From Porphyridium purpureum (lineage: Eukaryota > Rhodophyta > Bangiophyceae > Porphyridiales > Porphyridiaceae), in contig VRMN01000015.1 in assembly GCA_008690995.1 (NCBI GenBank), positions 186,001-250,000 on the forward strand: a stretch of DNA of 64,000 bases, in the 5' to 3' direction. The notes beneath the pieces were generated by a model that saw only the letters and a program-made list of their open reading frames with translations, did not search any database and was not told where the DNA came from. Position 1 is the first letter of the stretch. Each line of letters starts with the position of its first letter. Below are positions 1,016 to 60,702 of this stretch, in pieces. The position numbers were made by a program, and so were the translations under genes.

Positions 1016-1088
1016 GTACAGCCAAAATCCAACAGAGTACAGCGATGTACAGCGGCATGTACAGTCTTGTACAGTGAGGTGTACTGTG
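1016..1088. promoter_or_regulatory. Array of five GTACAG boxes upstream of the F1-inhibitor gene
   Basis: GTACAG occurs at 1016, 1037, 1047, 1059 and 1069, followed by GTACTGT at 1081. From 1037 on the spacing is 10, 12, 10 and 12 bp, about one helical turn, so the boxes would face the same side of the DNA. The array lies about 220-290 bp upstream of the F1-inhibitor ATG. The same hexamer forms inverted repeats elsewhere in this window. Function is inferred; GTAC is also the core bound by SBP-domain proteins such as the algal copper regulator CRR1. Confidence 0.5.
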
Positions 1089-1090
1089 GG

Positions 1091-1770
1091 AATTGGCGCA
1101 CAATCGGTTCAGCTGGACGGTGGGCGTGCGAGCTGAAATCTGGCGCTGCGTGTTGATGCGCTACGCGGCAGCTGCACGCACGAAGGGGATTACGTCTCGT
1201 GTAGGATGTAGCACTTTTTCCCAGGCTGGCATGTGCTCCCGCGCGCACGACCACTGTGGTCGAGTGATCGGCGTCGAGCTTGATGTGCGGGGTATGTATG
1301 ACTATCGATGCGCGGCTTTGGGTTCAGTCAGGCGCCCGTCACGCTCTTTGATCGTGGCAGCGGCCAGCATTGGCACAGTTCTTGGCCAAGCTTCCTTGCG
1401 GGAGACCGGTCTTCGGGCAGCGGTTTTGCCGTGGAACAAGCCGCTGCTGTGCGCGCGCATTTCGCCACGCTGGCTGCACCGACGCCGACGCGACTGCGGC
1501 TGTTTCCTCGCGACCGCGCCATGCGTCATGAGCAAACCCGCGCGCGCGTGCCTCTGCATAGCCAGCGCCGCGTGCTGGCTCCATGCACCGCGTTCCTCAC
1601 TCATCCAGCAAGCCACAAACTGCGACGACGCCACGCCGTCTGATGGCAGACTTGGGATTCCGTGTTGACATTTGCATTCAGTAGCAGCAGGCGCTCGAGG
1701 GGTCATCGCGGGGTCATCGCAAGTCACGACGCACAAGCATCACGAAATCGGTGCGTTTTGATGGAGACGT
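1091..1770. other. Intergenic region, no gene recognised
   Basis: Between the GTACAG array and the malate dehydrogenase promoter I see only unrelated short open frames on both strands, without domain motifs or purine-rich leaders. Confidence 0.4.
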
Positions 1771-1773
1771 GCG

Positions 1774-2067: not shown

Positions 2068-3075
2068 ATGGACGGCATGGATATTGGGTCGAAGGGGGTG
2101 GTGCGAGTGGTGGTCACGGGAGCGGCCGGGCAGATTGGGTACTCGCTGGTGCCGCTGATTGCGGGCGGCAAGATGCTTGGGCCCGGCGTCAAGGTGGAGC
2201 TGAGGCTGGTCGAGATCCCGCCGGCCATGGGCGCGCTCGAGGGCGTCAAGATGGAGCTCGAGGACTGCGCGTTCCCGCTGCTCGATAAGGTCGTGTGCAC
2301 CTCCGACGCCGCAGAGGCTTTTGTCGACGTCGATATCTGCATCCTCGTCGGCGCGTTCCCGCGAAAGGCAGGCATGGAGAGGAAGGATCTGCTCGCAAAG
2401 AACGCAGCCATCTTCAAGGCGCAGGGCGAGGCTCTCAATAGCGTCGCCAGCCCAAATGTCAAGGTCGTCGTCGTTGGGAACCCGGCAAACACAAACGCAC
2501 TCATCCTGTCCACCTTTGCGCCAAACGTGCCCAAGTCGAACATCACCGCGCTCACACGACTCGATCACAACCGTCTCAAGGCAATGGTGGCCCTCAAGCT
2601 GGACAAGAACGTGACCTACGTCGATGGCGCCGTCATCTGGGGCAACCACTCGGCCACCCAATTCCCTGACGTGCTCAACTGCAAAGTGGACGGAATTTCG
2701 GATCCGATCCGGGAAGCGGTCGGCGGCGAGGCATACTTGCGTGACGAGCTCATTCCAAAGATCCAGAAGCGCGGCGCGGCGATCATTGCGGCGCGCGGTC
2801 TGTCGTCCGCTATGAGCGCAGCGAACGCCATCTGCGATCACATGAACGATTGGCTGCACGGCACAGGCGACAAGTACGTATCTATGGCCGTCTTTGCAGA
2901 CGGAAGCTACGGCATCAGTGAAGGAATTGTCTACTCAATGCCCGTGCGTACCATGAAGGGCGGCTCGTATGAAATTGTGCAGGGCCTCACTGTAGATGCG
3001 TTCAGCCAAGAATACATGAAGGCGACTGAGGCAGAGCTGCGCGCGGAGCGCGAGGACGCGCTTTCAATTCTCTAA
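2068..3075 (+). CDS. MDH1: Cytosolic-type NAD malate dehydrogenase
   Basis: A 335-residue enzyme interconverting malate and oxaloacetate with NAD(H). The Rossmann fold opens with [10 protein letters not shown] (residues 17-25). Substrate arginines lie in [11 protein letters not shown] (R99, R105), the catalytic pair in TRLDHNR (D166) and VIWGNHS (H194). The order and the '[10 protein letters not shown]' string are typical of the cytosolic MDH1 group rather than of mitochondrial or bacterial-type enzymes. The ATG at 2068 follows a long GA-rich leader; an upstream in-frame ATG at 1936 would add only translated leader (Gly/Arg/Glu repeats) and is rejected. No targeting peptide is seen, so cytosolic shuttling of reducing equivalents is likely. 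The gene is convergent with the SLX4-like gene, 266 bp apart. Confidence 0.95.
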
Positions 3076-3341: not shown

Positions 3342-5192
3342 TCACTCTCCATCTTCATGAGCATTCCATTGACGCCCCGTCTTGCGCTTGTCGAAGAACA
3401 AGACGCCCTCTAAACGCAGATATTCCGCCAGCGTTCGAAACGACACGTCCAGAGGCCGCTGTGGCGCTTCGCGCAGCTGGTCTCTCAGCAAACCAAGGTC
3501 CACCATCCCGCCACCCGCGATTTGTTCGTAGACGCGCGCAAGTTCACTCAAAGTCTGCGATATACAACGTTGCTTGTATTCCGAGCAGATTCCGTTCAAG
3601 CGCGCCACAGACCCCTCATTCGCACAGTCGACGGCAGAGGGCGCCACTTCATCACCATCGGACGGCGAGCACTGTGTCAATATGAGTTCGTGCCTCTCCT
3701 CGTCGCTCGGCACATCAAAGCCGTACGAGTCGGTTTCAAGGGGGAGTGGAAGCGTGCTTGGAAACAAGGGTCTTTCTGGACTACTGGTCGTTCTTTCTTC
3801 TTCTTGTTCCAGCAGGTTATCATGCTCGTCCCTGCTTTCACTGTCAAAGAGACGCGAACGCAGTGCAACCTCAGAGTTCTCTGGAGAATCGACGTTGAAC
3901 TCGCGGATGTGGTTGATAGGACTTCGAGCTCGCTTGTTGATTAGCCCTCGGCAAAATGCTGGTGTACGAAGCAAATCATCTTCGTCCTCGCTGCTCATGC
4001 CTTCAACACGCCTTTTTGCGAGCGTGTGCTGATTGGAATCGACATGTGCGGTGCACGGATGCACCACATGCTGTTCGCACGAATTGTCCAGGTCAATCAC
4101 TTCGTCGCCCCGGTGTGCGTTGAGTCCAGTTTGCGCAACCTGTGGCTTCTTCATTGCGCCGCTCAGATGCGCAAATCCATCTGCAACTCGGCGACCGACT
4201 TTGGGAGAGCAGTTGAATGGCTGCGTGAGAGAAACGAATACCAATTCGTCATCACTACTTGGAGCTGCGTCTCCAGCATCTGTCGACAGGGCTTCTTCCA
4301 AATGTAAGTCCACAGGATCTTGGACACTTGCTTGTTTGCTCCGTTGCATTGCCGTTTGCAGGAGGAGCATGGATGGGCGCGCATCGAGAATTCTTTTGCG
4401 GGCGGCCTTTGGCAGCTTCATCGAATCCAAAAGCTGTTCAAACTCTGGCAAACAGTGCATGAGCTCGCGCGCGTGTCGATGCAAGCTGAACTGAGCCATA
4501 TATCGACCAAGACCGAGCGCGCAGAGCCATGCATTCAGCACACGGTCGCCTTGCGTACTCTTGTCGTGCTGCGCCTTTGCACGTCGCATTTCTTCCATCA
4601 AACGCCCGGGTCGACTCGCTGCCGTGTTGTCATTAGCGTCCAGGCATAAGTTCACGTGCTGCATCCGCATCTCGAATGGCATGTTTTCCAAACTCAGCCC
4701 ACACACAATACATTCAGCAATACTTTCTCCCGCCTGAGCCTCATCTGAACTACTTGCGCTTTGGCCAAGCGACCGCTCTTCCAACCGCTCATTCTCACAC
4801 GACAGCACGTGCGCCTGCCGATGCCGCGGCGCAAAAAGATCGAGCGACATGCTGCAGAACGGACACTCAACGCGCGGCATGCCAGCCGCGGCAACGGTGT
4901 CTGCGTTCATCCCTTTTCGCTCAGGCGACATGCTCCCACTTGAAGCACCAGATTTCAAAATGGTTAAACGCGCCGAGTTCGTTTCAATTCTCTCCCCTAG
5001 AGGTACAGTTCTAGCTGTACTATGTTGGCTACTCATGCGCGTCTGTGCACAAAACGACGTGTGGTGGTGTCTGCCATGCGAGTCGGCGTTTCGGTTTGGT
5101 GTGGAGAGTTTGCGACACAAGGCGCGGGTTGTGGTCGCGTGTAGAACGACGGTGACGGTCTTGCGGGGAAGCAGGCGCGCATATGTGCTCAT
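3342..5192 (-). CDS. SLX4-like structure-specific endonuclease scaffold (two UBZ4 fingers, SAM-like, C-terminal SLX4 domain)
   Basis: A 616-residue open frame. Two C2HC ubiquitin-binding UBZ4 fingers occupy ~108-133 (C110, C113, H128, C132) and ~159-184 (C161, C164, H179, C183). A SAM-like helical domain follows at ~215-270 (WLCALGLGRYMAQF...). A long acidic, serine-rich linker leads to residues ~545-605, whose pattern (YEQI, L-L-x-D-Q-L-R, Y-L-x-x-E-G-V-L-F-F-D) resembles the conserved C-terminal domain by which SLX4 binds the SLX1 nuclease. Tandem UBZ4 fingers are typical of vertebrate SLX4, the nuclear platform for cross-link repair and Holliday-junction resolution. No metallo-beta-lactamase domain is present, which argues against the SNM1/DCLRE1 family, the main alternative. 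Start is uncertain: ATGs at 5036 and 4931 are possible, and a GTAC palindrome at 5003-5020 would be promoter DNA if the 4931 start is used. Confidence 0.6.
   Translation of the reverse strand: MSTYARLLPRKTVTVVLHATTTRALCRKLSTPNRNADSHGRHHHTSFCAQTRMSSQHSTARTVPLGERIETNSARLTILKSGASSGSMSPERKGMNADTVAAAGMPRVECPFCSMSLDLFAPRHRQAHVLSCENERLEERSLGQSASSSDEAQAGESIAECIVCGLSLENMPFEMRMQHVNLCLDANDNTAASRPGRLMEEMRRAKAQHDKSTQGDRVLNAWLCALGLGRYMAQFSLHRHARELMHCLPEFEQLLDSMKLPKAARKRILDARPSMLLLQTAMQRSKQASVQDPVDLHLEEALSTDAGDAAPSSDDELVFVSLTQPFNCSPKVGRRVADGFAHLSGAMKKPQVAQTGLNAHRGDEVIDLDNSCEQHVVHPCTAHVDSNQHTLAKRRVEGMSSEDEDDLLRTPAFCRGLINKRARSPINHIREFNVDSPENSEVALRSRLFDSESRDEHDNLLEQEEERTTSSPERPLFPSTLPLPLETDSYGFDVPSDEERHELILTQCSPSDGDEVAPSAVDCANEGSVARLNGICSEYKQRCISQTLSELARVYEQIAGGGMVDLGLLRDQLREAPQRPLDVSFRTLAEYLRLEGVLFFDKRKTGRQWNAHEDGE
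5003..5020. promoter_or_regulatory. GTACAG-N6-CTGTAC palindrome near the 5' end of the SLX4-like gene
   Basis: Perfect inverted repeat of the recurrent half-site with a 6 bp spacer. It lies inside the longest reading frame but upstream of the ATG at 4931, so it either marks a downstream translation start or is coding coincidence. Confidence 0.45.
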
Positions 5193-5394
5193 GGGCGCGT
5201 CGTCCCCGCGAACATAAAGCGGCGGATAATTTGGGCGAGCCTCGGGGCAGCGGAAACCACGCGTGCTCCGTGAGGAGAGTTATTGTTTGTTTGCCCACCG
5301 CGTTGTAGCAGGGTAAGTAAAGCGTGCTTGTGTTTTTGATGCTTCGAGATTGGCTCCTTGCTTTGCGATAGCACCAGTTGGCTTTTTAACGTAC

Positions 5395-5735
5395 ACCGTC
5401 ACACAGCTCTTCTCCCTTTATTACAGGTTTTTCTTCTTCTTCTTGTCGATTGACGGTTGCCTCTCTTTATTTTTCTCAATCTAGTCGTCCAACTCGACGC
5501 GGACTGTACGCCGACTTCGCTGAAGGAAAAGTTACGCAGGTTTGAAAATCCTCTGCTGGTCGACCACTTCACGACCCCTCAACTAATCGCGCAAAAAAGG
5601 GCTAGACAAAAAACTTGTACAAAAATATGCGATGTTGATTGAGGAGGCGCATTTGTCAACGGGCGCCGCGTCCTCTTTCTTGTCAGTACTTGGCGCCGCT
5701 CGTCTCGAGTCATGTTTGGCTTTAACAGTGCATTC
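5395..5735. repeat. Diverged ~350 bp direct repeat, copy A
   Basis: Colinear with 12561-12935. Shared landmarks are CCGTCAC at the left, a TTC-rich run, ATTGACGGTTGC, GCAGGTTTGAAAA, CCACTTCACGACC, GGGCGCCGCGTCC and CACTTGGCGC. The copies are clearly diverged, and copy B carries a local ~40 bp duplication. They flank the retroelement graveyard and could be old terminal repeats. Confidence 0.6.
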
Positions 5736-7099
5736 GACAGAGAACAGATGTGTACGAAAATTTTGTCAGGAGTTTTGATTTTGGTAAGGATTGCGAGCTA
5801 CATTTGCAAAGTATGGTTTCAGACAAAGCACTGCGCATCACGAAATGAGTCATCTGTGGCAAGAATGCGACGCATTTACGCGGCATCTTGGGAAATGGTG
5901 CGAGCATTCGTGTGCTGCGCTCGAGTTCCGCTTCTTGGGGCTCGTTCGCGCCGAGCAGACTCGCTAGAGCAAGAAAGGTATAAAACTCAAGGCATGGACG
6001 GCCAAATTCGCGAAGCGAGCAAATAAAAGCAGGCAAGGAGGTTGCGAAGTTCGCTAGTGGTTATCTAGTTAGTAGACGTAGTGTGAAGTAGCCACAATAT
6101 TCACCATCAAAGACGTGCTTTGTTTCCTTCCGTATCCGTGTGAAAATGATGGCCGGTAGGAGCTGCACCCCGTCCGAGGGATTGCGTCTCGGAGCGTGTG
6201 GTAGTAGCGGGGGACGCGCAAGCCCCCAGCGCGGGGAAACGCGCCCCCAATCTGTGGCAGTTTCGGAGGACAAAGCCCACGTCGTGTGGGCGCGCAGCTC
6301 AATCCGACCGGTGGCTGCAAACGCGCACCGCATCTTGTGGCCATCTTTTGCGGAGGGGCGCCGCGGCGTCGTTGGTGCACCGCGCTTCTGGCGAAGCATT
6401 GGTACTTAATGCCGCACGATGAAGCTGGCAGGCTTCTGCGGCCCCAGATCCATAGAGCCACGGTTGAAGTTGTTGTGTCTGATAAAAGGACCTTCATTGT
6501 TATTCTCATACTCTCTGTCTCCGTCATGGCTCTATTCTACTCGCCCGAATCCGCTGCGGCACTAACCTCGCAAGAATTTGTCAATTATTTATTTAATGAT
6601 TGACTGGATACGGTCTTCACTGTACCCAGATGACCCTCAACACATCTATAGAAGGTTCCATCGAGGGCTTCATACAGCTAGAGAAGGATAAGAGCGCCGA
6701 TTGACGGCGAGCGAGAAGAGAAGGCAAGACTTTAGTCTAGTGATAAGGGTTTGAAGACCACATCATCATCTGTCACCCCGACTCCAAAATATCGAACAGG
6801 AACTTTCCGTCACGCAACCAGCAGTCGCGTGCGTTTCGTGCTGTCACTCTGTAAAGGTGGTGCAGCGCATAAATTGAACCATTGAGAAGCTACCGGCCGA
6901 AGGGGAAATCGAAAAGAATAAGGTGCAGCGGCGGTGACTGGAAGAACATGTACCACCGCTAGGGTGACAGTAAACGAGGATATAAGCAGAGGGTTCGCAA
7001 CCAGCGAGAGCAAGTCGCGGCAGAATGAGCTGGATGCGGAGGAGCTGTCATGGAGCCGGTCTGTTCGGTGGCTGACGCTGTCAGGCGACCGGTGTGAGG
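5736..7099. other. Non-genic DNA with promoter-like motifs
   Basis: No gene is recognised. A TGAGTCATC motif (about 5847) and a TATAAAA (about 5980) resemble retroelement terminal-repeat promoters seen elsewhere in the window. Confidence 0.35.
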
Positions 7100-8880
7100 G
7101 TACGGAGGTATTCTTTTCGTGAGGACTGGTGCGAGTTGATGCCAAGCTCGATAGCGGTATGTGCCTATCGCGGATGGGACCGGAGCTATTCCGTGAGCTC
7201 AAGGGCGAGGCTGGAGGAATCCAGCCCGCACTCATGCCTCTGGCACCCGACGGAAGGGCAATGAAAAGACGTTCAGTTAATGTGACGAAAATAAACCTTA
7301 ACAGGAAGTGCTCTCCTGAGCAGCTGCAGATCATGCCTGGGCTGGTCTCGAGACCTTTGCTAGGACAAGAACTTCTCTATCGCAACCAAAGGAATATCGA
7401 TTGGTACCCGGGCCGTGTTACATTCATCACCGTTAAAAGAAAGAATCGGATCCCTTCTAGCGTGCGGCCATACCTACATCCAGTGTTGCCACTTGACGAG
7501 ATGCCAGAGGAATGATCGGAGCATGAGCTCACCAGAGAAAGATTCCAGACTCTTGACCTCAATGCATTTGGGTCGCTCGAAAAGCGCGTACGCCGTATTC
7601 TTCCTGAGAATATAGACTTGATCCTCCGGAACGAAATAATTGAAGGAAAAGTATGCCGAGTGCGGCTCAGACCGAGAGCGGTGATGGTAGATGCACCAAG
7701 AAGGCGCAAATCCCAGAAGAATTCGGAGGTTGAGGAGAAAGAAACTTGAAAGCCCATAGAAAGAAAACCATCGAAGAATGCACGCGAGGCGAATGGGGGC
7801 CTGCAAGAGCATTCGTATTCAAAACGTTTGGCACCCTCCTAATGTCGACTGTCTTTCGTGGCTAGAATAAGGATAAAGAGAAAGAGGTGTGATCGTTCAG
7901 AGACCTACACGAGGTTTTGGAGCTCCTTGCGAGGGAAGCTTAGGATCATCTTTGTATTTAAAGGACAGTTTCTTTGCCATCGTGCTCGACACGGAGTCAC
8001 AGGCTCTGACAGCTATGAAGGCAAAAATGGGGCTGTACCAGTACAAGAAGCGTCCGCAGGTTCTTGTCACAAGTGCTTTTACCACGCAACGAGCTACCGA
8101 CCGTCGAAGGGGATTTCAAGGAGAAGCGGCGAGTTTTCTGAGCGATATTCATGTGGCATCGCCGATGCTCGAGGCGCATATTGCGGTAACAGAGAGAGCG
8201 TCAATCTCTTGTCAGGCTCATGCAGCAATACTGAATGTTTCGGCGTGCCACATTGGTAAGGAAAATGTCGAAGCGTTAGCTGACGATGTGAGATTCGGAA
8301 AGATTCGCCTAAGCAAGAAGCATGCGAAAGCTGCCTAGAAACTACGAAAGCTGACTAGCGCAGCGACATTCGTCCGCATTCTCGGATCGGCGAGCCGAAT
8401 TGAAGGTCTTGTCTCGAGCTTATCGTAGGTTTTGAGTTACTCTAGATGCAACGAAAAGAGGCGGAATCGATACACTCCGTTATAATCTCGGATCTCGATT
8501 ATTGCTGGAACATCAAATATTGGTACGGCGCGAGCTAAAGCAGCGATTGATAAGCACGCAGGGACTGGTGCCGCTCGCGCACGGAAACGTAAACGCCCAG
8601 TCACGGACGCCTCACAGATGGATTGCGGCAGGGTACTTGGGCAAGAGGAAGCGGTTGGGACTCTGGAAACCAATTGATTTCTTTTCCCGGTCGTTACGCG
8701 GTGCGGAGCTGAACTATCCCGTAGGCGACGAGGAACCGCGGCCGTCATCCATGCAACGAGTAAATTAAGGCATTTCAAGCACGGATCGAATTTAATCGTC
8801 ATGACAGATTCTCAAGCATTGATATGGCTACTGATTCGAATCCCACGAGGCGGCCGGTAAGATGTTATTAGGAGCTCCAA
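7100..8880 (+). mobile_element. Ty3/gypsy pol fossil
   Basis: Old, heavily broken remnant of a Ty3/gypsy polyprotein in plus orientation. An aspartic-protease-like stretch lies near 7130-7400 and reverse-transcriptase-like sequence near 7900-8340 (a YQYKKRPQVLVTS string similar to the family's YKxLPFGL block). RNase H-like sequence lies near 8500-8830 (FFSRSLRGAELNY and a TDSQAL string). It has many breaks and is a non-functional fossil. Family assignment rests on the order of these parts. Confidence 0.6.
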
Positions 8881-9055
8881 GATGCAGACCTCCAGGTAGA
8901 ATATTGACCCGGGCCTCAGATGCAGGCAGCGGACAGTCTCTTGAGAGACTCGGAAGATCAGTAGATGACCTGGAAGTACTCATCGCATTGCCGATCGTGC
9001 TTGAGTTCATGATGGAATAGAAGGCAAGTCGTGCGGAGCTAGGAGAAAAGTTGAA

Positions 9056-11290
9056 TTGGAAGGTCTTTTTTTGTTTTCTTTTTTGTATGATCACTGGATG
9101 ACTCTTCTCAAAAGCAATAACTTTGCAAGTTTGTGCAGCGATGAGTGCTGCGCTTTAGATGATGCAGCTCTCGAAGCTCATTTCGCTGTCCGATCGCCTG
9201 AGCGCGCACATGAATTTCTTCGCAAGGTCCGTCTTCGTGTTCAATGTGAATATCAGTCTTTATCCATCATCGACCTGTTCGCTATTGCTACTCGATATCT
9301 GAATGTCACGACAGATCCCAACGACATTTTACCAATGCTCCTGGTATTCGGAACCATTCCTAGGATCGCGGTTTATCTTGGCATTGCTCAGCATGATTGG
9401 TGAGAACTGCAGGAGACGAGACTCTGTGCCAAATATATCGCAAGAAATCAATACTGGAAAAAGTTTTGGACGAATCTAGCTTTCTCGTGCAAGATATTAT
9501 TGATTATCACCGTTTCCACGGCAGGATGACCCAGTTCGTCCTGGATTCGGCGTTCTTGTGCGCTACGAACGTGCATACGAGTACGCTGGGCCATGTTTTT
9601 CTTGCTTCCATAGACGGCACGGACGTGTAGGTTGCAATACCCAGCCAGATCCCTGGTCATGGCGGTCGCGTACATTTGATAAAATACCATATTGCCAATA
9701 TCAAACTGTATCGTTCTACAAGTACGACGAACTCTGTCCCTAAAAGTGACGCGCCATTTACCGCTGCGCCAGCTTTATGCACGGAAAATGATAAGGACAA
9801 TTTCATGACATCTCGCCGGAAGGAAAGTGCAGGCTTGATTGATCAAAGAACTTTCATTCGATGCTCACAGCCTCCACGAGGTGCAACTGTGCCTAAAGTA
9901 CGATTTGTCGACACCATTTAACAAGACGGCAATGAAAAATCTCGACTAGTTGTATAAGGCTAGCGTTTCGCACATCGTCACGGGACAAAAACTGCTCTTT
10001 GTGCGCCAGCTCTTTCGCAATTGATGTTTTGTGGTCTCGTCTCGGTTGCAATCATCCGCCAAGAAACGTGAAGGTATCGAGTTCTAGCGCAGGAGTATGT
10101 GAAGAGCGGCTCTGATCTACATCGACTAGTATATGTACGACTGTCTCCGGATTAATTGCGCCTGTTCCAGCTTACCGGTAAACCAGATTTGGTTCGGACA
10201 CAATATCTTCTGGTGCGACGAGCGTTGTAAGGTCTTCGCGACAGTGGTACCGTTAGGACTGCGACCTCACGTAGGTATCTTAAGGACCACGGTTCTAGAC
10301 GCGCTGCTCCGGATCTGCATCCATACCGACTTCTCGCGCAAAATGCACCGCCTCATGGAGCACTGGGTGGACTCGTCGATGAGGTGATCGGTTTTGGTCA
10401 TACCATGTTCTGTGGACGAGAAGGACGGGTCGCAAACACCTCTAAACACAAAGGTTTGCACCAAACACCATTCCCTTCCTACGGATATGCAGTAATACAG
10501 CATCAACAAGAGAAAGCAGTAAAGATCCATCATACTGCCTATGTGAAACAGTATCTTTCGAATCTCTGCCAACTTTCCGATTTCGAAAGCTTTCGTTCGC
10601 TGCAAGGCAAACTTGCCTATTTTGCGAATGGTACGCGACCCGACTTTCTCGGCAGCGCCAATATTCAATGACAAGTTAAAGCGACATACTTTGACGACAC
10701 TGCCACCAAGCGTCTTTCAAGAATCTCTTACTTCGTCAATCGCCAAGGCCGCAAACTTTTATATCTCCCGCTCGACGCAAGCCGTCTTCATTTACGTGTC
10801 TATGCTAATGCCTCATGTGGCACACATCAGGACGGCGGATCACAACTGGGCATCGCCATCTTTCTGGGCGATCACACGGATCGAGGTCATTTCCTTCATG
10901 CCGTATCAAACCAGTCACGATACTTTGTCACATCTTTTCTGAGTGCAGAACTACTCGTATTATGCTAAGCATATGACCATACTCAAGCAATCCAAGCAGA
11001 ACTGCATGCTTTTCAAATTCACGCGAAGCTTGTGCTGTACACAGACTCAAAGCATATATTTGATGCACGAACGTATGGAACGACCTTGTTTGAAAAGTGC
11101 ATGATGGTACGGCTCATGTCACTCCGCGAAGGAGCCAAAGGCTTATCTATCACCGAACTTCTCCGCACCTCTGGCAATCGCAATACTGCCGATACACAAA
11201 CAGAATACAAACTGACTCGTCGACCTTGGACATTTGTGCAAGCGAAAGGTCGTCTCTTCGATACATGTGAGGAGCGTCTGTACTAAATTG
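9056..11290 (+). mobile_element. Ty1/copia pol fossil
   Basis: Old, heavily broken plus-strand remnant immediately after the gypsy fossil. The end of a copia integrase is seen near 9200-9400 (PMLLVFGTIPRI). The end of the reverse transcriptase lies near 10450-10680 (GKLAYFANGTRPDF). RNase H follows near 10790-11290 (YANASCG, SQLG, LYTDSKHIFD, NRNTAD). The RNase H type resembles copia elements known from fungi and algae. Repeat sequence at 11573-12060 is a candidate for its 3' terminal repeat. Confidence 0.65.
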
Positions 11291-12542: not shown

Positions 12543-12560
12543 TGGGTTTTGCTGCCAATT

Positions 12561-49770: not shown

Positions 49771-52700
49771 CGCGCCCTCTCAAGCTTAATCCATATCGAG
49801 CGCAGGCTAAAAGAGATTCATATCACAAGCCCCCAACAAGGGGGTATATAGCTAGGACTAGCCATACCATCATCATATCCATAACGGGTTGGTTTCACCA
49901 TACCCGAACAATCATAAGAGGGCGAATTGGTGCTCCGCCCTCACAACCTAACACGACTCCGTGGCCGAAGGGGAAAGAAGGGATGACGAGAGGCCCCACG
50001 CGCACGCATGGCCGCGGAATACATCGGCGCTCACTGGCTTCGTGAGCGGGTCAGCCATATTGCCCCGTGTGGGCACGTGGTCAACGGTCACGAGTGCTTC
50101 ACGGTAAAGCTCGTGAAGCCAAGCCAGACAAAGTTTCTGGGTCTTGCTCGCATGGATCAGCCCTGGACTGAATCCCTTCATCACCGCGCCAAGCGCGGTC
50201 TCATTATCGCAGCGGATAGTGGCGCGCGGCCATCCCCGGCCCACATCCTCCAGGAAAAGTGCGATGGGAAACAGCGCGTTTTGCACTGCGCCATGGAGCG
50301 CCACCAGCTCTGCTTCGGCTGTCGAGGTCGCAACGCGCCTCTGACGTCTACTGGACCACTCGACAAGGTGAAGGGTATCACCGGACACCAAGAATAAAGC
50401 AGTACCGCTGGTTGAGCGACCGGGATCCAAATCGGAATCCACATAACAATGGATCATTATCTGAGCATTCTCCGCTTGCGGCACCGGATAGCGCAAGCGC
50501 ACATCTGCGTGTTTGTACAAGTACGCGAGGACCTCGCTGAGTGCGCGATCTGCATCAGCCGACCAGCGATCTGTGTGACGCGCAATCATTGCCACTGCGT
50601 GTGCGACATCGGGGCGGGTGGTCCTGGCGAGCCACATGAGCTTGCCCAGGCATGAGCGCACCTCAGACGAGCAAGAATTTGCTTCTTCGCTCGTCTCGAC
50701 TCGGGATGAAAGTGGTGTTGCCCTTGCGCGCCCACCTTTGTGGGCCGCAGTGATGTACCTGGCAAATTCGCAGCTATCAAAAATCCACGCGCCCTCCTCG
50801 CGGTACACATTCACGCCGAGGTAGCGGATTGGTTTTGCGCGCGTGCTTTCCGAGATGAGCTGCGCGCTCTTAGTGATGTTGAACATTCTTACTAGCTCAC
50901 GCATTGCCTCGCTCACCGAGTGTGTAGTGCCAAGGATGGCACCATCGTCCACGTAAAGGACGAGCAAAGTAAGCACGCCATTTCGTCTGCGCCAGTAAAT
51001 GTTCTTGTCCGAAGCCGACTCTTTCCAGTGTGCGGCACATAACTTTTCGCGAGCATAAGCCGAATAATCGAATCCCGCTCTGGGCAATCCGTAAAGTGCC
51101 ATCGGTATTGGCACGACGGGGTTTGGAATCGAAGAAATTTTCCGCATATCAGCTCGCGGCAACACAGAATCCAAGAACGGCATCAAGGATTTGAAGTACG
51201 CAAAGGTCGGACTTCCGAGTAACGGTGCATGTACATATGCAGCATCGACGTCAAAGAACATCGCATCTGCGGCCTCACCATGAGTATGGAGCGCAATCGA
51301 CACCGCAGCACGAATGCTCGAAAGGCCCGGAGGCCGGTCAAACTGCGGCACTTCGGGCGGGGCGCGCCGGCCTGTTGCATCAGTGATGTGGCACCCTTGT
51401 GCCACAACGCGGCACTTCAGCGCGCGATGCTCGGGAGGCATCTCACTGTTCTTAATAGCCATGATTGGCTTCAAGTTCACAAAGCGTGCTTGCTTTGCGC
51501 GTGCAGCCTCGTGCTTGCTGACCACCTTATGAAACGGCAGAGCGCCGCTTCCTATAAGTGTCTGCATCTCCTTCTGAAACGCAATGCGGCCTGGCTTTGT
51601 GTGCGCGTGATTGGCAAATGCCACGATCTCAGCTACACCAAGTTCTACAACGTCACCGCTGCAGCTTGCGGTGCGCCCATGTTGAGCGCCATGCCCTTCC
51701 TCCGTCGGCTCCTGCTGCGCCAGCTGCGCCACGCCTAACACCATCTGCATAGCGCGCGTGTTCCCGGTCTTGATGCCGCGCCGATGCTCTTTGAGACCCA
51801 TGGCGCGCTCGCCGAGTAGGCCCATGGCTGCCGCATGAGATCGCAAATCCTTGCTTCCAATGCCGCGCAGTGGCTCACCTCCGCTTTCACCGATCAAGGA
51901 CCAATTAGGCCCGTGCTTTTCGCATCCTGCGCTGAGCGCGTTGTTCATATCTGCGCTCCAGACGCGGCGTTCCTTCTTCCTCTGCGGCGGCGAAACAAGA
52001 ACAACCTCGTTGTCTTCTTGCTGGGCTTCAGCGCTTTTATCACCGGGCAGACTTGACTGAGTATGCTCCGATGATCTATCGCCCTCGGATTCGTGCATGC
52101 TGTCCCGCTCCGGCATTACCCGAGCCATTACACCCTCTTCAGATGGGCGCTCCTTCTTGGGAAATTCGTTTGCTGATAAAGACCACTCTCTTACCCACCT
52201 CGCCGTTGTGGGCCGGAGGTCGGCGTAGGGTGCGGCAAGAAGGTTAAGGGGTGTTCGCGTTGTTGTTGGGGTTGGCATGCGTATGCCGATGACGAGTGCC
52301 AATGTGCCCGGTGAATCGTACTTTGTGTGCTCGGGCGCCAAGACGTACACGCCGCAGCCGAACGGCGGAAGCTCACGGTTCCAAGCGAACCCGTAGCGAG
52401 CCTCATACGGCGTCTTGCCGTCAGCGCCCTCCCACTTGACGTTGCGGGCAGCTGCCCAGTACTGAGCCACAAATGCGAACCACGGCGAATCGAGTCCGGC
52501 GGCGGCAATGCGTGAACGCCCGCGTTCAAGTCACGATGCATTCTTTCGTGGATGGCATGCGTATTGGGACGGTGTGGGAGCATGATTTCGTGGGCTACCA
52601 GGTTACCTTTCAGGGCTGTCTCGAAAGCGCCTTGAAACTCTCCTCCATCATCGGTCTTGACAAGACGCGGCCAGCCGCGTCCGCGCTGTATCTCGATCAG

Positions 52701-54833
52701 CGCCATCAACGTGCTCTCAGATGTTTTGTTCGCAAGCGGCGCGACTACCAACCAAGCGGTTGCCGCATCACGGTGGGTCATAAGCCAACGTGTTCCACAT
52801 ATGCCCGTCTCGGTTGGATCAACTAAGTCGACCGATACAACATCGTTAAATCCCTCGAATTGGGAATTTTCCTTCTTACGCGGCGCGCGAAGTACTTTCA
52901 ACTTCGCCGCCTGACAGGCATCACAACTTGCTTTGGCGGGCATGTGCAGCACTCCGTGCTCATCTTCTGGCACCTCTTCGTTAGCGCGCGGTGCGTGCGC
53001 CTTATGCCCGCTTGCGACGGCACACTCAAATGGTTTCTCCGGCTCATCTGCCGGTGCTTCAATTGCGGCAGCTGGCCCAGGAATACTTTTCCCAGCAACT
53101 TGAATTTTCAATTCATGTGCATGTAGCCAGTCCAAGCCGAGAATTAACTCATGATGCCCTTGATGCACCCACGCATTTGTGCTCTCATCAGTCGCGCCGG
53201 GCGCGACGAGCAGGAATGAGGCTTTGCCATGAATTGGCTCACTGCGCCCATCGGCCAATCGGATGCGTGGCCCGTTCGCTCCGCACTTCGTGTACGGCAC
53301 TCACAAGCGGCGACACAAAGCTTGCGAGATGAAGGTTGCGGTGGCGCCAGTATCAACAATGGCCCGAGCCTTGTGCCCGTTGACGAATACTGGCAGTCGA
53401 ATTAGATCCGAAGCGCCGCTGACGGCGCTGGTTCCAATCTCGTACTCGGCCACACCCAGCTCTTGCGTGCAATCTGCGGCCCAGTGGCCGCGTCTTCCGC
53501 AGTTGCGATAAGTATCAGCACCGAGATGATTGCCTATTGGCGGCCCACGGTTTCCCTTTGATTGCGCCTTCGGCACGTTCTTGCCTTTGTTGTTTCGTCG
53601 GCCATACCTCCGACGCGGCCCTTCAGCCGTCCCAAGATCCATCGGCGCGATGCCATCGTTGGAGAAGGCGGACGCGTGGACGCTCTGCCGATACACGGCA
53701 TCAATTGCCAGTGCCGCTCGGAGTGCCTCATGGTAGTCGGCGGGCTGCTTCAACAGCACTTGCACTTAGATCTTTGCCTGCAAACCGCGCACGAAGCGAT
53801 CGAGACGTTCCGGATCGCTGACGGACGGAAGGCGAAGTAGGCAATTACCGAAATCGTTTGCGTACTCATGCACGCTTCGATTGCGGTGCACGTAGGCAGC
53901 GAGTCGGTCACGAGCGATCTGACTTCAAGCAATGGGTTCAAATTCCCTCTTAAAGACGCCAATGAAGCGGTCGAACCTGATCGGTTTCGGTTCCAGCACG
54001 GACCACCATAGCCTCGCGGCTCCGTGAAAGAAAGATGCGGCTACACGCACACATTTCAGCTCCGCGTCGTCATCCCATGTACGACCGGCAAGCTGGTATT
54101 CCTCTCTCAACTGTGAGAAGATGCGATCGTTCGCGGCGTCGCACCACGACGCGACCACAAGTGCGTCGCGTTCTCCGAGGAAAGCGGGCATGGGAGCGTG
54201 CTTGACTTGAGACGTCGCGTCAACGCGCGAGTATGCGTCATTGCGCACGCGGTGCAATTCAGCGGCGAGCGCTGCGCGCTCTTCCTGCACCTGTCCAATG
54301 AGTTCCTCGCGCATGCGCGAAAACTCTTGAGACATGGCCTGTCGCATGAGCTCAATATCGCTCTGCGCGGCAGCCATCGTCGGCTGATGATGCTGCTGTG
54401 CAGCTGCCTGCGCAGCCAGCTCGGCCTGCATGGCCTGCATGGCCTGCATGGCCTGCATGGCCTGCTGCTGCTGGCGAGCTAGCGCCGCGTTGCGCTCTTG
54501 CTCCAGCCGGGTGGGGGTCCTATGACCTGACTCCATGTGGGAGTAACTTCTGCTTTGTGCCTACTACACGAGCCTACGTGCGATCGTTCCTTTGCAACGA
54601 GCCTCTCGTTCTAATTGCACGCTACAAGCCTCTTGCTCGTACGTCTGTTTGTGCGCGCCGTGCCTTCTTGCACGCGTCACTCAACGATCACCGGTGCGGC
54701 GAGCTCCTCGCTCGAGCCGTCTTTGCGCAACTGTCGCGTTCGCGCTGTGCCTCGCACACGCCGTCGCTGTTGTTCGCTTCACGCCGTGCCCTTGCACGCG
54801 TTACTTTGTTGCAGCTGTGTTGTTAGCGACCTA

Positions 54834-54845
54834 GGCTCATAACCC
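54834..54845 (-). other. Copia primer-binding site for initiator tRNA-Met anticodon half
   Basis: Minus-strand GGGTTATGAGCC, two bases after the 5' LTR, is complementary to the GGCTCATAACCC anticodon arm of eukaryotic initiator tRNA-Met. Drosophila copia is known to prime from this internal half-tRNA rather than the 3' end. Confidence 0.65.
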
Positions 54846-54846
54846 G

Positions 54847-55190
54847 TGATAGAGTCACAGAAATGAACGTGGGGGACGAGGTCCAACACTGGTAAGGGGA
54901 GACAGCAAACCGAAATCCACTGCCGAGAAGACAAGACCAAAAGGGTATCCACGAGTAACCTCCTTTAATCCGCGCCCTAATCTCCTCTGACTAAAAGCCA
55001 ACTAAGCACGTCGGCGGCGACGCGAAAGGGTGCTGGTTATACACCCGTGCGGCGACATGGACGGCCGCCGTCGCCGCCCATATTGGTGCAGTGTGGGCAC
55101 AGATTGAGGCTGCTGGCTGCTCACTCATCTGCAGCAGTACGACGGAACTGAACGCCCGTTCGATACTGGAGTACAGCTTGACCCCCTTCA
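54847..55190 (-). repeat. 5' LTR of the copia element
   Basis: 344 bp, partner of 49427-49770. Confidence 0.9.
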
Positions 55191-55219
55191 CGAGAAGCGC
55201 GCGCAAAAAGGTTAGGACC

Positions 55220-56362
55220 ATGGAAGAAGATCGGCGAAAATCCGGAGCTGGGCGTGGACAGGTAGCACAGAGTTTGACTCCAGTGCAAGCGCATTGTCGG
55301 CACAGCCGCTCAGCTACCATTGGGCGCAAAAACGGGCTTTCGGAGCGCGAAAAAGGGTCCATTTTGGCCGTGAAGGCAGCCGGTGACAGTCTGCACGCAA
55401 TATCGGGCAAGGTAAAGCGCTCCCGCAACGTCATTCGCCGCTATTTGGCAGATCTTGATGCCTACGGCTTGAACTACGTTTCGGACAACTCATTGAAGCT
55501 CATGCCGGCCGTTGTCAAGAGAATCACAAATGTTGCAAGGTCGAGACAGTTTTCTACATCACGCCAGATGGCGAAGAATCTGCGCCTGCGCGGGGCAAAG
55601 AACATCGAATCGTTGGCATAAATCCGGAAAGCCACGCATCAGGAGTTTGCCTTCCGCCGGATGCCAAAGAATCCGCCTTTGGCAGTGGAACGTAAGCGCA
55701 AAAGATTGGACTGGGCCAGAGCGCATATGGCGTTTGGCGAGAAGTGGAAGAAAGGTGTCTCTACGGACGAAAAGAAGTTCAATCTGGACGGCCTGGATGG
55801 ATTCCATGCCACATGGATGGATAAGACGAAAGTCCCTTTTGCTTGCTGGTCTCGTCATAGTGGTGGTGGGAGCCTCATGGTTTGGGGTGCAATTTCAAGC
55901 CGTGGAAAACTGTGCCTTCACTTTGTTGAAGGCACGGTGACTGCTGACAAGCACGTGCGCACGCCGCAGGACAAAGAGCTCTCTCCGAAATGCCGAGCTG
56001 CTCTGGGCAATGACTTCATTTGGATGCATGACAACTTGAAGCCACACACTGCAAACTTGAAAGCAAACATTTTCCGAGCGCAGAACGTTAATCTTATTCA
56101 GTGGCCTGCGTACTCACCAGACTGAAACATCATTGAGAATGTCTGGGGCATTCTTGCTCGGAAGGTTTTCGAGGGTGGAAGACAATATACGACCGTGAAC
56201 GGACTGAGGAGCGCTGTTCTTGCTGCATGATACACCATCGAGCAGGCTACCATTGACAACCTGTATTTGTCTGTAGACGATCACGTGTGGGAATGTGCGC
56301 GCCGCGATGGTGGATATGTGCAGGGTAATCCGAGTCAGTTTCGCTTTCGTCTTGCTTCGTAA
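55220..56362 (+). pseudogene. Tc1-type (DD34E) transposase, interrupted by in-frame stops
   Basis: One reading frame of 381 codons from ATG 55220 to TAA 56360-56362, with three internal stops (TAA at 55619, TGA at 56123 and TGA at 56228) and no frameshift. An N-terminal helix-turn-helix region lies at ~40-105 (LSEREKGSILAVKAAGDSLH, SRNVIRRYL). The catalytic domain shows VSTDEKKFNLDG (first D), FIWMHDNLKPH (second D) and, 34 residues further, NIIENVWG (E), i.e. DD34E as in the Tc1 family. Other hallmarks are GGGSLMVWGAISSRGK and WPAYSPD. The clean frame with only point stops suggests recent death. The promoter side is separated by the copia insertion, which alone would silence it. Confidence 0.88.
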
Positions 56363-56703
56363 TTGCTCGGGCAAAGTGTGGATTCCTATCCTTTTCGACC
56401 CCCTGTTTGGTCACTTTCCCTCTCCCTTCTTCCGTACCTTGTCCTTTTCATAGTAAAAAACTGTCTTTTTCATATGAATTTCTAAAATTGATTAAAATAT
56501 GGTGGGGGGTTCTATCCATTCTGGTCGCACTTTACACTCAGTAACTGTACCTGTCCATACTCGCTTTACTGAGGCCTGCATCAGGTCGCACGCGACAAAA
56601 GAAGAGAAAGAGAGCAGGGAGAGACGGATGAGTTGAATGAAAGAGGACGAAAGAAGCCCGGTTTGTGCCAGACACAAACCACGATCGTGGATAATTTTGA
56701 TTC

Positions 56704-57862
56704 CTAGCCCGCGTTTGAAGCGCTTGTCGGGTTCAGACCGCCTGTGAACGCGACATTCGCTATTTTACATGTAGAAGAAGATTTGCTCGCAAGCCAAAGG
56801 GACAAGGTACGGAAGACGTCATCGACGACGTCGTCGATCGTGCCAAGATCATGCAGCTCACGGAAGGACTCGTCTGATTCACCGAATGAAGCGCCCACGC
56901 AATCGCTCGAATTCTCGTCACTTCGCCGAAAATCTTGGAGTCCACGTACACGCGTGCGTACGTGTGTGCGTGCAAGCGTGCGTTCGTTTGTGCGTGCATG
57001 TTTGTGTATCTTCAGCATGCGGCGTTCGGATTCTTGACATGAAGCGCCAAAATATGGGCTTTCGTTGTGTTTTGTAAGCTTTGGTGTGCGTATCAAACAA
57101 ACAGAGCGGACACGCAAGCAGTGCGACTGAAACGGATAGGTCAGAATCAGCGTTTGCGTGAAGTCATGAGAGCCGGGAACCGAAATGATGTGCGCGAGAC
57201 GGCCATTGCCGAAAACGTACAGAAATCTGAAACCAAAACCGCTGAAGGTCCTATACCAAGCAAAAACGCCTCGCGCGCTTCGTCTTATGATCGACTTTCT
57301 TTCCTGTACCTCTAAATTAGAAGCGCTGCCTCCTGCTGCGCCACAACAAGTCATCAGGACAGCAAGTGAACGGCCCGGGGTGCGTTTGAGCCGATCCTTA
57401 CAAATGGCTTCCATTGTGACAAAACACCCGATTTTGTTTGCTGATGAACGTGGCGCCGCACATCGTACTTTCGTAAGGGGTTGCGCTCGTGGCGTCCGCT
57501 TGCGGGCCCATAACATTCCATGTCCGCCACAGAATATCTTTGCGCGTTTGACTGGGAAAGCGTGGCGACTTCCTGACATGGACCAATGCCCCTAAAGGTC
57601 CTTGCGCCTGCGGCCCTTTAATTGTGAGCAACTGACTCCCGTGCCTCCTGTATCGTGATCTTTTCAAAATCTTATCAGACACTATGAAGAAATCGCTGTG
57701 CGCATCGACAACGAGGCCACCAGCGCGTCTGTCCCTGTCATCAGGACGCCTTGACCCGTTGGGCCGGATAACGACATGCAAAGGGGACGACAGGATTGCT
57801 CCACGGGAACGATGCGGAAGGGGGCATGACCCCTCACTTCCACGCGGGCGACGCCGTAACAT
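56704..57862 (-). mobile_element. Ty1/copia integrase-region fossil
   Basis: Minus-strand remnant. Near 57420-57540 the end of a copia integrase is recognisable (WNVMGPQADA, TPYE), and downstream a GVFAWYRTFSGFGFRF string fits the segment linking integrase to reverse transcriptase. Old, several breaks, truncated near the Tc1 end. One 291-residue open frame (56704-57579) lies within it and is not a host gene. Confidence 0.45.
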
Positions 57863-60702
57863 GGCTATGCCCTCTCATTTGCAACGATGAGCTTTGTGGC
57901 GGCTCTATGTATTGGGCAGCCGTCGTGTACTCAGTAACGCGACTCCGCAAGTAAATAGGTCCAAGCAAGTTGTTTCCAAGTTGAGGGAAAGGATGAACTG
58001 CGACAGTTTCCTTGACACCACGGCGGCTTCCTTATAAAGGGCACAAGCGGCAATTTTCGAACCGCTTCATTATTTGGCCGAAATTGTTACCTCATATCAC
58101 GTTTACAACAATTGGCAGAGGATTCGTGATTCAGACTGGGTGAGAGACATTACGTGGTTACTAATTTAAATAGCAGATCAATGTTCATGGCAGAATGCCG
58201 AGTCCATCGCCAATTGTGAGAACCTGTAGTCTAAAACCCTGAAGGGCAAGACAGGTAAGTGTACTTGAGACAGAAGGACCCTTTCAAAGCCTTTGCAAGC
58301 CATGTGGAGACGCAAGATTCAGGTTTCAGAATTGTTACTGGCATCGTAAGTTTCTAGAGATGCCTGCTTTAGTCGCGTGTGAGTCAATTAAAACTAAACT
58401 ACACGGATTAAAACTGAAAAAGCCAAAACATCGAATAACAAAATTAGCAAACTTTGAGCTACTTTACCGCCGCATTGAAGTCTATGTAACGATCCACCCC
58501 TTTTGTCCACCTGCAGCTTTTTTCTAATCGCCTCTTTAATCTTTTTGTTACAGTCTAAAGTCTATTCTAATGGGCACTGTACCACTCGGTACAGTGCATC
58601 GGCCCCCAAAATAACTGGGCGGTCCGGTTAGCTTTAGGGTCTAGTTGTAGGGTATTTAAGCTCTGCCGCTTCACGGCGGGGATTGGAGAAAGAGAGCGAG
58701 AGACAGAAGAGGAGAGAGAGTAAAAGACGTTGGTTTTGAACGCTTGGGGTCTGGGACACGAGCGGACGATTGGGGTAACCCAAATCGTGGCATCTAGGCT
58801 GTACCACTCGCTCGCTGCGCAAAGTCAATCAAACGGTTGACGATAGTCATGAGGCTAGTGAATCTGACGAATCAATACAGCTGAAGTGCATTCCGTCCGC
58901 CTCATAGCTTTAATCGCAATGTGAATAGGTTTGCGCAGGCCAGACCATATTGAGTGGGACACAGACGGCAAGGTATGCATTTACTGATGCCAAAAAGGTG
59001 AATGTCGACGGGCAAGATGGTTTCCACAGAACAGGGCCCGAGCTTGAAAGAGACGTTGAAGTCCTCGCGACACTCCGACGGTAGCACATGTTCAACTGGG
59101 GCGCCGTCTTCGCGAAAGCAAAGGCTTGCCGTGATCTCATGAACTGGACGTTAGCGGTTCAAATGTATTCTTCTTTGGTTCATCATGATGGTGTGCGAGT
59201 TTGATTTTGTTTATGTTTAGCTGAGACACGATGCAAATGATTGCACACCAGTCTTCTGCTAAGGCACTTCATATGCCATAGAGAAATTGAATTTCCAGAC
59301 CGACCATTGTCTTCGCCGTCGTTCAATGTCATCGTTAACCTCTGGGGGGATGCTAGTGCACAGTTTGACAAGCGTGTATGGCAGCGTCTGACTGTGCGGC
59401 AACTCTGGACGCCATCAGACTTGGTTGGTCGACTTTGGAAACGCCTACGCGAGCGAATTTGTATGTGTCGTCGTGACGACTCACCGTGCACGTGTGCTTT
59501 CAGCTATGTCTCACGACTGTCCATTATTTCAAGCTCCTGTCTCCAATAGAAATAGCGCGCCCCATGCCTCCGGGGATCACACGCAGTGGAAGAAGGTGTC
59601 AACGACTGATGTCCTATTTTCGGATCAGGAAGTCCCGAAGCACCCAGAAGACGCCATTTCTGACGAGTTGGAAGATTCGCTTACGGTGTAACTCCGAACA
59701 GACTCGAATCTCCGCTTCGTTTTCCCTTTTTGGGTCCCTATTATGTCTTTTTACGGTGAACAAGTGCACATAGCGAGTGGCCCCGATGCTTACATGAGTT
59801 TCTCCTTTATTGTGCCTTTCCCGTCTTCTCTGGCGCTACGGCTATATAAGCGCTGGAGACAGCACCATTGTTTAGTTTATTTTGCCTCCCTCTTTCAGCC
59901 AAGGGGAGCAATCAACCAGCATAAAACACGTTCATTGAGGAAACCAAGCAGACTTTCGCGTACCAATTCCCGCTTTTGTCCGCCACGCGCATACCAGCGC
60001 CTTCTGCCTTTTCCCCTGGCAAAATGACAAAGGGATACCGCAAGCAGAATCCGTACAAGGCTATCAGCGCTCAGCCTCGCTCAGAAGGTAAGATAAGAAT
60101 CAATAAAGCGTGCGACAGAAATCTTACGGTAAAGTTTAAAGTGCGAAAGAGAGGACAACCGGGACCGCGCAGGAACACCACGGAGCCCATGACCAGACGG
60201 TCCTCGGCCCCATAGTTTCACACCCACGCCCTTGAAGATATTTTCCGGGACGCGATCCCGACTATTGCGACAGTACTCGTCTATGCCGATGCGTATGTTC
60301 GAGCATGCATGTGCTTCAGGCAAACACGTAGACGAAAGCCATAAGCGATTCTGAACTTGCGTGATTGAGCAATGTCCGGACAGCGAGTGTGTGTCCGGTC
60401 TGGCCTTTCACCATGCCGCGCTTGGACATGACCTCGAGTCTTTTCAAGTAGAATGGAATACTTCATGAGCAAAGCGTAAACACGAGTTCCGTTCTCAATC
60501 CCTGCTGGTTGCTTTTGCGGTCGGGAAGATGAAGACCGGGACGTCGGGGTTACGATACTGAATGAAGTCACAGTGCCCATGTGGTCAAAGATCAACATTT
60601 TACACGTGCGAAAGACGATGTAGCGATGATGGGTGGCGAGACTCGCCGGCGAAGCAAGCCAAATCGGGGACGGTACTGATTTCGATTTCGCAGCGCGCCT
60701 TC
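57863..60702. other. Repeat-rich DNA without a recognised gene
   Basis: It holds a promoter-like module without a gene (GTAC dyad 58574-58597, TATTTAA at 58653, GA-rich leader 58684-58730) and a second TATATAAG at about 59842 followed by a pyrimidine-rich tract. Broken open frames on both strands suggest old retroelement DNA, but I cannot assign a family. Confidence 0.4.
58574..58597. promoter_or_regulatory. GCACTGTACC-N4-GGTACAGTGC palindrome
   Basis: The longest perfect dyad in the window (10+4+10). A TATTTAA follows 56 bp later and then a GA-rich leader, the same layout as at real gene promoters, yet no ORF follows. It is probably the promoter of a dead gene or of an LTR. Confidence 0.6.

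Follow-up and report, generated by a model that had tools for sequence, protein, structure and literature searches.

Homotypic clusters of transcription factor sites in eukaryotic promoters hold several copies in any orientation, near the start and at helical spacing, and the bacterial NtcA/CRP-type box, TGTA-N8-TACA, is a fixed dimer site. Two systems with a GTAC core have been described in eukaryotes. The CRR1/SPL7 copper-response elements of green algae and plants carry this core in promoters, and SBP domains bind GTAC-core motifs (PMC4158090). The sites of Plasmodium PfAP2-G have a GTACNC core, and three or more of them have been described in one promoter (PMC7083873). For the red alga Porphyridium purpureum, the promoters in the accessible sections of PMC10866757 are whole upstream fragments of 500–1500 bp, and those sections describe no promoter element; in addition, no earlier report of a red-algal CTGTAC promoter element was found in the open-licence literature.

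The word CTGTAC in P. purpureum resembles each of these systems in part. It has the GTAC core of the copper-response elements, but it differs from them in having its own flanks, in occurring as phased half-site clusters and in marking 42 of 79 sampled genes; moreover, a published census counted 0 SBP genes in P. purpureum, against 23 in Chlamydomonas (PMC4827209, Table 3). Similarly, it shares with the PfAP2-G sites both the core and the occurrence of several copies in one promoter, whereas the same census (PMC4827209) detected no AP2/ERF genes in P. purpureum. As in homotypic clusters, its copies lie in any orientation near gene starts and at helical spacing; the difference is that a single word heads the list of promoter words in the sampled DNA. 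The everted form CTGTAC-N6-GTACAG also reads TGTA-N8-TACA, like the NtcA/CRP-type box, but P. purpureum uses inverted and direct arrangements and spacings of 5 and 7 as well. An NtcA-like reading was rejected, since inverted pairs match everted ones in number and direct pairs exceed both.

Sites in the 64-kb window

The initial annotation of the window (the whole 64-kb stretch of DNA analysed) had reported an array and inverted repeats at nine further places, and all ten were checked against the window sequence. The array at 1016–1074 stood as described, with five GTACAG half-sites in a single direction on the forward strand (starts at 1016, 1037, 1047, 1059 and 1069) and no dyad. Exact dyads were present at seven of the nine other places, and at 20745 and 49277 only near-dyads were found, each of which (20745–20764 and 49277–49294) combines one CTGTAC-type arm with one GTGTAC/GTACAC-type arm. 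The spacers, described as mostly 4–6 bp, are indeed N4, N5 or N6 at six exact dyads, and the spacer at 43451–43485 is 19 bp.

Several of these sites lie, as proposed, in the 5′ regions of genes. The array precedes the F1-ATPase inhibitor gene (447–797, minus strand) by 224–277 bp; this gene was identified by a Pfam IATP match of 26.6 bits (cut-off 25). A cluster of four half-sites at 1774–1858 (1774, 1792, 1843 and 1853), which holds the exact dyad GTACAG-N4-CTGTAC at 1843–1858, is 215–294 bp upstream of the malate dehydrogenase gene (2068–3075, plus strand), and the exact dyad CTGTAC-N5-GTACAG at 33638–33654 is 70–81 bp upstream of an ankyrin-repeat gene (31675–33573, minus strand). The exact dyad AACTGTAC-N19-GTACAGTT at 43451–43485, with 8-bp arms, occupies the divergent promoter of a pirin gene (42046–43044, minus strand) and a PsbP-like gene (43858–44745, plus strand), about 380–440 bp from either start. 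The near-dyad GTGTACAG...GTACAC at 20745–20764, placed by the initial annotation in the BED-isochorismatase 5′ region, is about 600–620 bp upstream of the start of that gene (18820–20145, minus strand). It also lies some 160 bp downstream of the 3′ end of a Prp19-like gene (20922–23096, minus strand).

Two other dyads lie inside or upstream of predicted ORFs of 616 and 561 aa. Neither ORF matched a Pfam family at E ≤ 0.001, and the glycosyltransferase named as a neighbour was not confirmed in either. The exact dyad GTACAG-N6-CTGTAC at 5003–5020 falls within the first 190 bp of the 616-aa ORF (3342–5192, minus strand), a position that is ambiguous relative to the gene, as the true start of this ORF may be further in. 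The exact dyad AAGTACAG-N6-CTGTACTT at 46778–46799 is 142–154 bp upstream of the 561-aa ORF (44958–46643, minus strand). A 204-aa ORF on the plus strand (46642–47256), passed over by the gene caller and with no Pfam match, overlaps the latter dyad. No nearby gene was assigned in the window to the exact dyads GGTACAG-N6-CTGTACC at 12523–12542 (7-bp arms) and GCACTGTAC-N6-GTACAGTGC at 58574–58597 (9-bp arms), or to the site at 49277–49307, where the CTGTAC/GTACAC near-dyad is followed by a second CTGTAC at 49302 and which adjoins a terminal-repeat pair.

Abundance, arrangement and helical phasing

As a single hexamer, CTGTAC occurs 49 times in the window, compared with 46 occurrences of the reversed word, which (or the reversed pattern) served as the control throughout. 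At spacers of 4–8 bp, four GTACAG..CTGTAC and two CTGTAC..GTACAG dyads were present, and 500 dinucleotide-preserving shuffles of the window gave a mean of 0.004 per dyad type, with 0 of 500 reaching the observed value of either. In the whole assembly (22.16 Mb in 46 contigs), GTACAG-N6-CTGTAC was found 70 times against 3 for the control, in line with the annotated claim that the dyad recurs beyond chance. The single word numbered 8134+8034 (control 7056+7078) and ACTGTAC 3181+3139 (control 1548+1540). At spacers of 0–30 bp there were 573 inverted, 565 everted and 1995 direct pairs genome-wide, against 66, 69 and 195 for the control; word counts predict about 91, 91 and 183 pairs for CTGTAC and about 70, 70 and 140 for the control. 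The excess over the expectation for independent half-sites is therefore present in all three arrangements, and the clustering of CTGTAC is real and genome-wide.

Repeats contribute to these numbers. Among the 50 N6 dyads listed of the 70, 13 share one identical spacer and represent one repeat family, and the one pair of this family examined consists of two identical, terminal-repeat-like 221-bp repeats 5536 bp apart. Similarly, the window sites at 49751 and 55171 sit in two paired 351-bp repeats that are separated by 5420 bp. It could be argued from such cases that transposable elements or simple repeats left the sites behind as debris, but 37 of the 50 listed dyads are outside the large family, and spacers differ among most of them, with four other spacers recurring two or three times. 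A spacer and flanks common to the copies in general were not seen, flanks having been compared at one repeat pair only. As site position is in addition tied to gene starts, repeat debris is disfavoured as a general cause, and we consider it very unlikely.

The flanks of the sites give the half-site consensus c(A/G)CTGTAC(not G). The extended word CTGTAC(A/C)CTAC was set aside, with only 2 occurrences in 264 kb. Half-sites are grouped by twos to fives, and all relative orientations are represented in these clusters. Inverted pairs favour 4–8 bp between hexamers, with a mode of 6, and everted pairs 5–7 bp; these peaks, together with an N6 inverted dyad count about 24 times expectation, favour a rigid palindrome that is read by an obligate dimer across a fixed spacer. 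However, direct repeats are over-represented even more than inverted or everted pairs, single half-sites are enriched at promoters, at least five spacing values are used across three arrangements, and second-turn spacings are favoured too. Such a palindrome is thus improbable, and of the lineage-wide dimeric transcription factor site initially proposed, the recurrent putative factor site at promoters has held up within the one genome analysed and the single dimeric palindrome has not. Because of the over-representation of direct repeats, the unit is the half-site, in phased and flexible clusters. Tandem arrays inflate the direct-repeat count, for example through a 13-bp spacing repeated in one sampled piece (L008).

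The distances between GTAC cores, pooled over all orientations, repeat every 10–10.5 bp. On one contig (C1), 226 pairs were listed and 6 repeat copies removed, and the 207 pairs with core distances of 9–34 gave a likelihood-ratio chi-square of 17–22 (2 df) at 10–10.5 bp over three smooth null models. In the 264-kb sample without L008, 31 pairs fell in 18 peak bins and 4 in 9 dip bins. With peak and dip windows chosen beforehand from contig C1, the genome-wide counts were 109 for CTGTAC-N14..17-GTACAG against 44 for N10..13 (binomial p = 1.5e-7), and 97 against 42 when C1 was left out (p = 3.5e-6). The control word leaned in the same direction on small numbers (15 against 8, p = 0.21).

Position relative to genes

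The positional sample comprised 79 ORF-defined genes in 264 kb (the window plus 200 kb outside it), where genes are ab initio ORFs that start at the 5′-most in-frame ATG and miss exons of intron-bearing genes. In this sample, CTGTAC occurs at 2.46/kb upstream, 0.42 in coding and 0.34 in downstream DNA, with a flat control word, and ACTGTAC at 1.44/kb upstream against 0.08 in coding DNA. When the window is set aside, the corresponding CTGTAC densities in the other 200 kb are 2.66, 0.41 and 0.18/kb, and those of the reversed word 0.41, 0.52 and 0.64/kb. The 22.2 kb of upstream DNA here contain 59 sites and the 102.4 kb of coding DNA contain 42 (Fisher p = 9e-20), and the equal frequency in coding DNA that would have spoken against a promoter element was not observed. 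CTGTAC ranks first of 2041 hexamers for upstream enrichment in these 200 kb, and only ninth of 1891 in the window alone. The sites are concentrated in about 600 bp upstream, with a maximum 100–300 bp before the predicted start codon, which supports the promoter position proposed by the initial annotation. For the 14 further N6 dyads examined among the 50 listed of 70, 8 precede an ORF start by no more than 600 bp, 2 fall inside an ORF and 4 are elsewhere.

At least one CTGTAC lies within 600 bp upstream in 42 of 79 genes (reversed word 20) and at least two in 29 (reversed word 0). Among 180 words of the same letters it is first on both measures (medians 13 and 1), and the runner-up, GGTACA (30 and 17 genes), overlaps GGTACAG. 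As the remaining 37 of 79 genes are without a site within 600 bp, CTGTAC is not a universal core element. The share of genes with a site is 9/27 in small-contig and contig-end samples and 33/52 in large-contig samples, and the latter figure indicates that the element is broad.

Sequence evidence of this kind suggests that the CTGTAC cluster is likely a major proximal promoter element for a putative DNA-binding factor. A sequence-specific protein would read each half-site as a unit, and half-sites that face the same side of the helix would be bound cooperatively, with bound proteins linked by flexible contacts or by a common co-activator. Such binding may activate many of the RNA polymerase II promoters or keep them accessible, those of light-harvesting genes among them.

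Inverted repeats could form hairpins, and the region from −50 to −300 may in part be transcribed as 5′ untranslated RNA, which would suit an RNA-level element (a hairpin or untranslated-region signal) instead of a DNA site. Against this, the orientation of the sites is 35:40, which shows no strand preference (preference and not function being measured); direct repeats, incapable of such hairpins, outnumber inverted ones; and phasing by the helical turn belongs to double-stranded DNA. An RNA element is thus extremely unlikely; in the window, no Rfam family reached its gathering score and no tRNA was found. Somewhat better placed is a chromatin or general-regulatory-factor site (for a nucleosome-free region, boundary or replication origin), with a role like that of yeast Reb1, Abf1 or Rap1 and unlike that of an ordinary regulon activator. 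Broad use over unrelated genes, the even orientation and the position at −100 to −300 agree with it, but phased clusters are common here, unlike the mostly single sites of the yeast general factors. This role, inseparable from activation on sequence alone, appears possible though rather unlikely.

Candidate factors and light-harvesting genes

The initial annotation had linked the GTAC core contained in CTGTAC to SBP proteins. An SPL/CRR1-like SBP factor bound to this common core would make the sites copper-response elements, but the published SBP count for P. purpureum is 0, the sites have (A/G)CTGTAC(not G) flanks, and a site in 42 of 79 sampled genes is too many for a copper regulon. A PF03110 profile search of the genome likewise gave 0 SBP matches, although 14 control genomes were equally without a match and its power is unproven. 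The SBP link is not supported and is most improbable. The putative factor is probably neither SBP nor AP2, and is therefore expected from a family that red algae possess; by published counts, C2H2 zinc fingers are the largest red-algal family, followed by MYB and bZIP, and our guess is that the candidate comes from one of these three.

Within 600 bp upstream, CTGTAC is present at 10/10 genes with phycobilisome (PBS)-linker matches and 8/10 with LHC-like matches, against a background of 42/79. The PBS excess has uncorrected p values of 0.004 and 0.015; PBS genes on contigs C34 and C38 may duplicate one locus, which would leave nine independent genes, and the ten LHC-like matches include three weak ones (E = 8e-8 to 8e-5). 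The apparent excess of the word at light-harvesting genes over other genes is weak, and a light-harvesting-specific regulon was rejected, since the site is also carried by the majority of large-contig sample genes given above. One ORF of the genome is identical at 490/490 positions to a linker chain in the phycobilisome structure PDB 6kgx, which is from P. purpureum, in agreement with the species.

We tentatively propose that much of nuclear transcription in P. purpureum, and perhaps in mesophilic red algae generally, may depend on a single dominant regulator that recognises the GTAC core but belongs to neither SBP nor AP2, the known GTAC-binding families. It would read helically phased half-site clusters and tie light-harvesting to housekeeping genes. 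A single word found at about half of the promoters sampled, together with a spacing rule, is a direct handle on regulation: CTGTAC could serve as bait to isolate and identify the factor, be mutated in reporters and be traced through other red algae. Such work would reveal a GTAC-core code that is read by neither SBP nor AP2 proteins, and would supply a rule for designing expression vectors in algae.

Pairing and promoter position of CTGTAC

The initial annotation had listed nine dyads, i.e., two facing copies of CTGTAC (GTACAG on the other strand), in the window; seven are exact and the other two are only near-dyads, and the array noted at 1016-1074 is a direct array. The enrichment that it expected over dinucleotide-shuffled sequence was borne out, as the window contains 49 copies of the hexamer and 4 and 2 dyads in the two orders (shuffle means 17, 0.004 and 0.004), and neither the dyad counts nor the hexamer count was reached in any of 500 dinucleotide-preserving shuffles. 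Compared with the same letters read backwards, the hexamer alone is unremarkable in the window (49 versus 46), and it is therefore its pairing and position that stand out.

Reversed words likewise served as the control for counts over the whole assembly (22,164,627 bases in 46 contigs, the window being positions 186001-250000 of contig C30), in which CTGTAC occurs 1.14 times as often as its control and ACTGTAC twice as often as its own. Pairs at most 30 bp apart number 573 inverted (GTACAG..CTGTAC), 565 everted (CTGTAC..GTACAG) and 1995 direct (both strands), against about 91, 91 and 183 expected from word counts under independence; these numbers are raised by repeats (one spacer is common to 13 of the 50 places listed, from 70 counted, with a 6-bp spacer), and the direct count additionally by tandem arrays. 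The control word gives 66, 69 and 195 pairs, with about 70, 70 and 140 expected, and is thus near chance, whereas CTGTAC is not.

Position was analyzed in 264 kb (the window plus 200 kb outside it), where 79 genes were taken as ORFs picked by hexamer coding score. The 600 bp upstream of genes contain 2.46 CTGTAC per kb, against 0.42 in coding sequence, 0.34 downstream and 0.65 elsewhere, and the density of the reversed word is flat across these classes. Outside the window (200 kb) the densities are 2.66, 0.41, 0.18 and 0.64, and CTGTAC ranks first of 2041 hexamers in upstream contrast; in the window alone they are 1.98, 0.45, 0.77 and 0.69, and it ranks ninth of 1891. Density is maximal 100-300 bp upstream of the start codon. 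At least one site lies within 600 bp upstream of 42 of the 79 genes and at least two upstream of 29, compared with 20 and none for the reversed word and medians of 13 and 1 for 180 words of the same letters. Sites show an orientation ratio of 35:40 relative to the gene. Among 14 dyads with a 6-bp spacer, drawn from the 50 listed (4 cut by the tool, 10 hand-picked blind to genes), eight lie at most 600 bp upstream of an ORF start, four lie elsewhere and two lie inside an ORF, one of them 55 bp past a weak predicted start.

Half-site anatomy and phased spacing

Flanks of the 75 upstream half-sites (single copies) favor C at -2 (41/75) and A or G at -1 (69/75), and G after the hexamer is disfavored (5/75). 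Most single-base variants retain little of the upstream excess; for GTGTAC, CAGTAC and CGGTAC part of it remains, about 1.6 to 2 times.

In contig C1, spacers peak at 4-8 bp for inverted and 5-7 bp for everted pairs. Across all arrangements, distances between GTAC cores (226 listed pairs, 6 repeat copies removed, 207 within 9-34 bp) cluster at 9-16, 18-25 and near 33 bp, with dips at 17 and 26-29 bp, and adding a period of 10-10.5 bp to three smooth nulls improves the fit by a chi2 of 17-22 (2 df). The 264 kb sample, which is nearly independent of C1 in that it shares just its first 20 kb, gave, with locus L008 left out, 31 pairs in 18 peak bins versus 4 in 9 dip bins. With one peak and one dip window set from C1, everted pairs numbered 109 and 44 genome-wide, and 97 and 42 without C1 (p 3.5e-6); the control word was alike in direction (15 and 8) and not significant (p 0.21). 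Such same-face spacing would be a requirement of cooperative proteins on double-stranded DNA. The palindrome reading of the initial annotation had spotted the feature correctly, and depicted just its tidiest form.

Repeats and other features

Positions 49422-55192 of the window form an LTR-type element: two direct repeats of 351 bp, which share 97% identity and are separated by 5420 bp, contain GTACAG at 49751 and 55171, and between the repeats lies a 776-aa minus-strand ORF with no Pfam match. On contig C11, two identical 221-bp repeats 5536 bp apart (loci L045, 6800-8000, and L046, 12336-13536) each hold the dyad GTACAGCTACACCTGTAC. As this dyad is found at 13 of the 50 listed places with a 6-bp spacer, the host promoter element apparently resides within the repeats of a recent LTR-type family.

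At the start of contig C4 (locus L009, 1-312), a tandem array of AACCCTAGAGT, with a unit of 11 and sometimes 13 bp, runs from the contig end into AACCCTAACCCTAACCCC and is a candidate telomere or subtelomere repeat. The protein encoded at window 18820-20145 shows an odd pairing of an isochorismatase domain with a weak BED zinc finger match (residues 88-142; 19.7 bits, below the cut-off of 20.6). P. purpureum is an intron-poor species. Long stretches of the window without a confident long ORF by coding score (5200-14300, 26900-30400, 35500-40000 and 56000-60700) may represent repeats, intron-bearing genes or noncoding transcripts.

Genes carrying the element and candidate factors

Site-bearing promoters in the window include those of an F1-ATPase inhibitor (five sites), malate dehydrogenase (four sites), an ankyrin gene, a divergent pirin/PsbP-like pair and a 561-aa gene without a Pfam match. 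The phycobilisome (PBS) linker family has ten matches in the genome, one encoding a protein that is identical at all 490 of 490 residues to one of the linker chains in PDB 6kgx, the P. purpureum phycobilisome. Within 600 bp before the 5'-most ATG, all ten carry at least one site and eight at least two, an excess over all 79 background genes (p 0.004 and 0.015, uncorrected); for ten light-harvesting (LHC)-like matches the figures are eight and five (reversed word, 2 and 0). A site is also present at 33 of 52 background genes in the large-contig samples, so that use of the element is broad and not restricted to light harvesting. Contigs C34 and C38 both contain a same-scoring proteasome gene with a similar PBS-linker gene at an equal distance (8650 bp), and are probably duplicate assembly copies of one locus.

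Literature searches, at the level of their listings, returned no earlier report of the motif, and the available passages of a P. purpureum promoter paper (PMC10866757) describe no such element. SBP proteins, suggested initially as possible binders of CTGTAC, are unlikely in this role: a published transcription factor census lists none in P. purpureum and 23 in Chlamydomonas (PMC4827209, Table 3). A search of this genome gave no SBP match, an unproven negative since control genomes gave none either. The same table lists for P. purpureum no AP2/ERF, C2H2 60/199, 47 MYB of all types together and 21 bZIP; none of C2H2, MYB and bZIP was singled out by our sequence evidence. CTGTAC half-sites in phased clusters thus make up a genuine promoter element, and a prominent one, and we infer that it serves as the site of a protein-bound activator or general factor.
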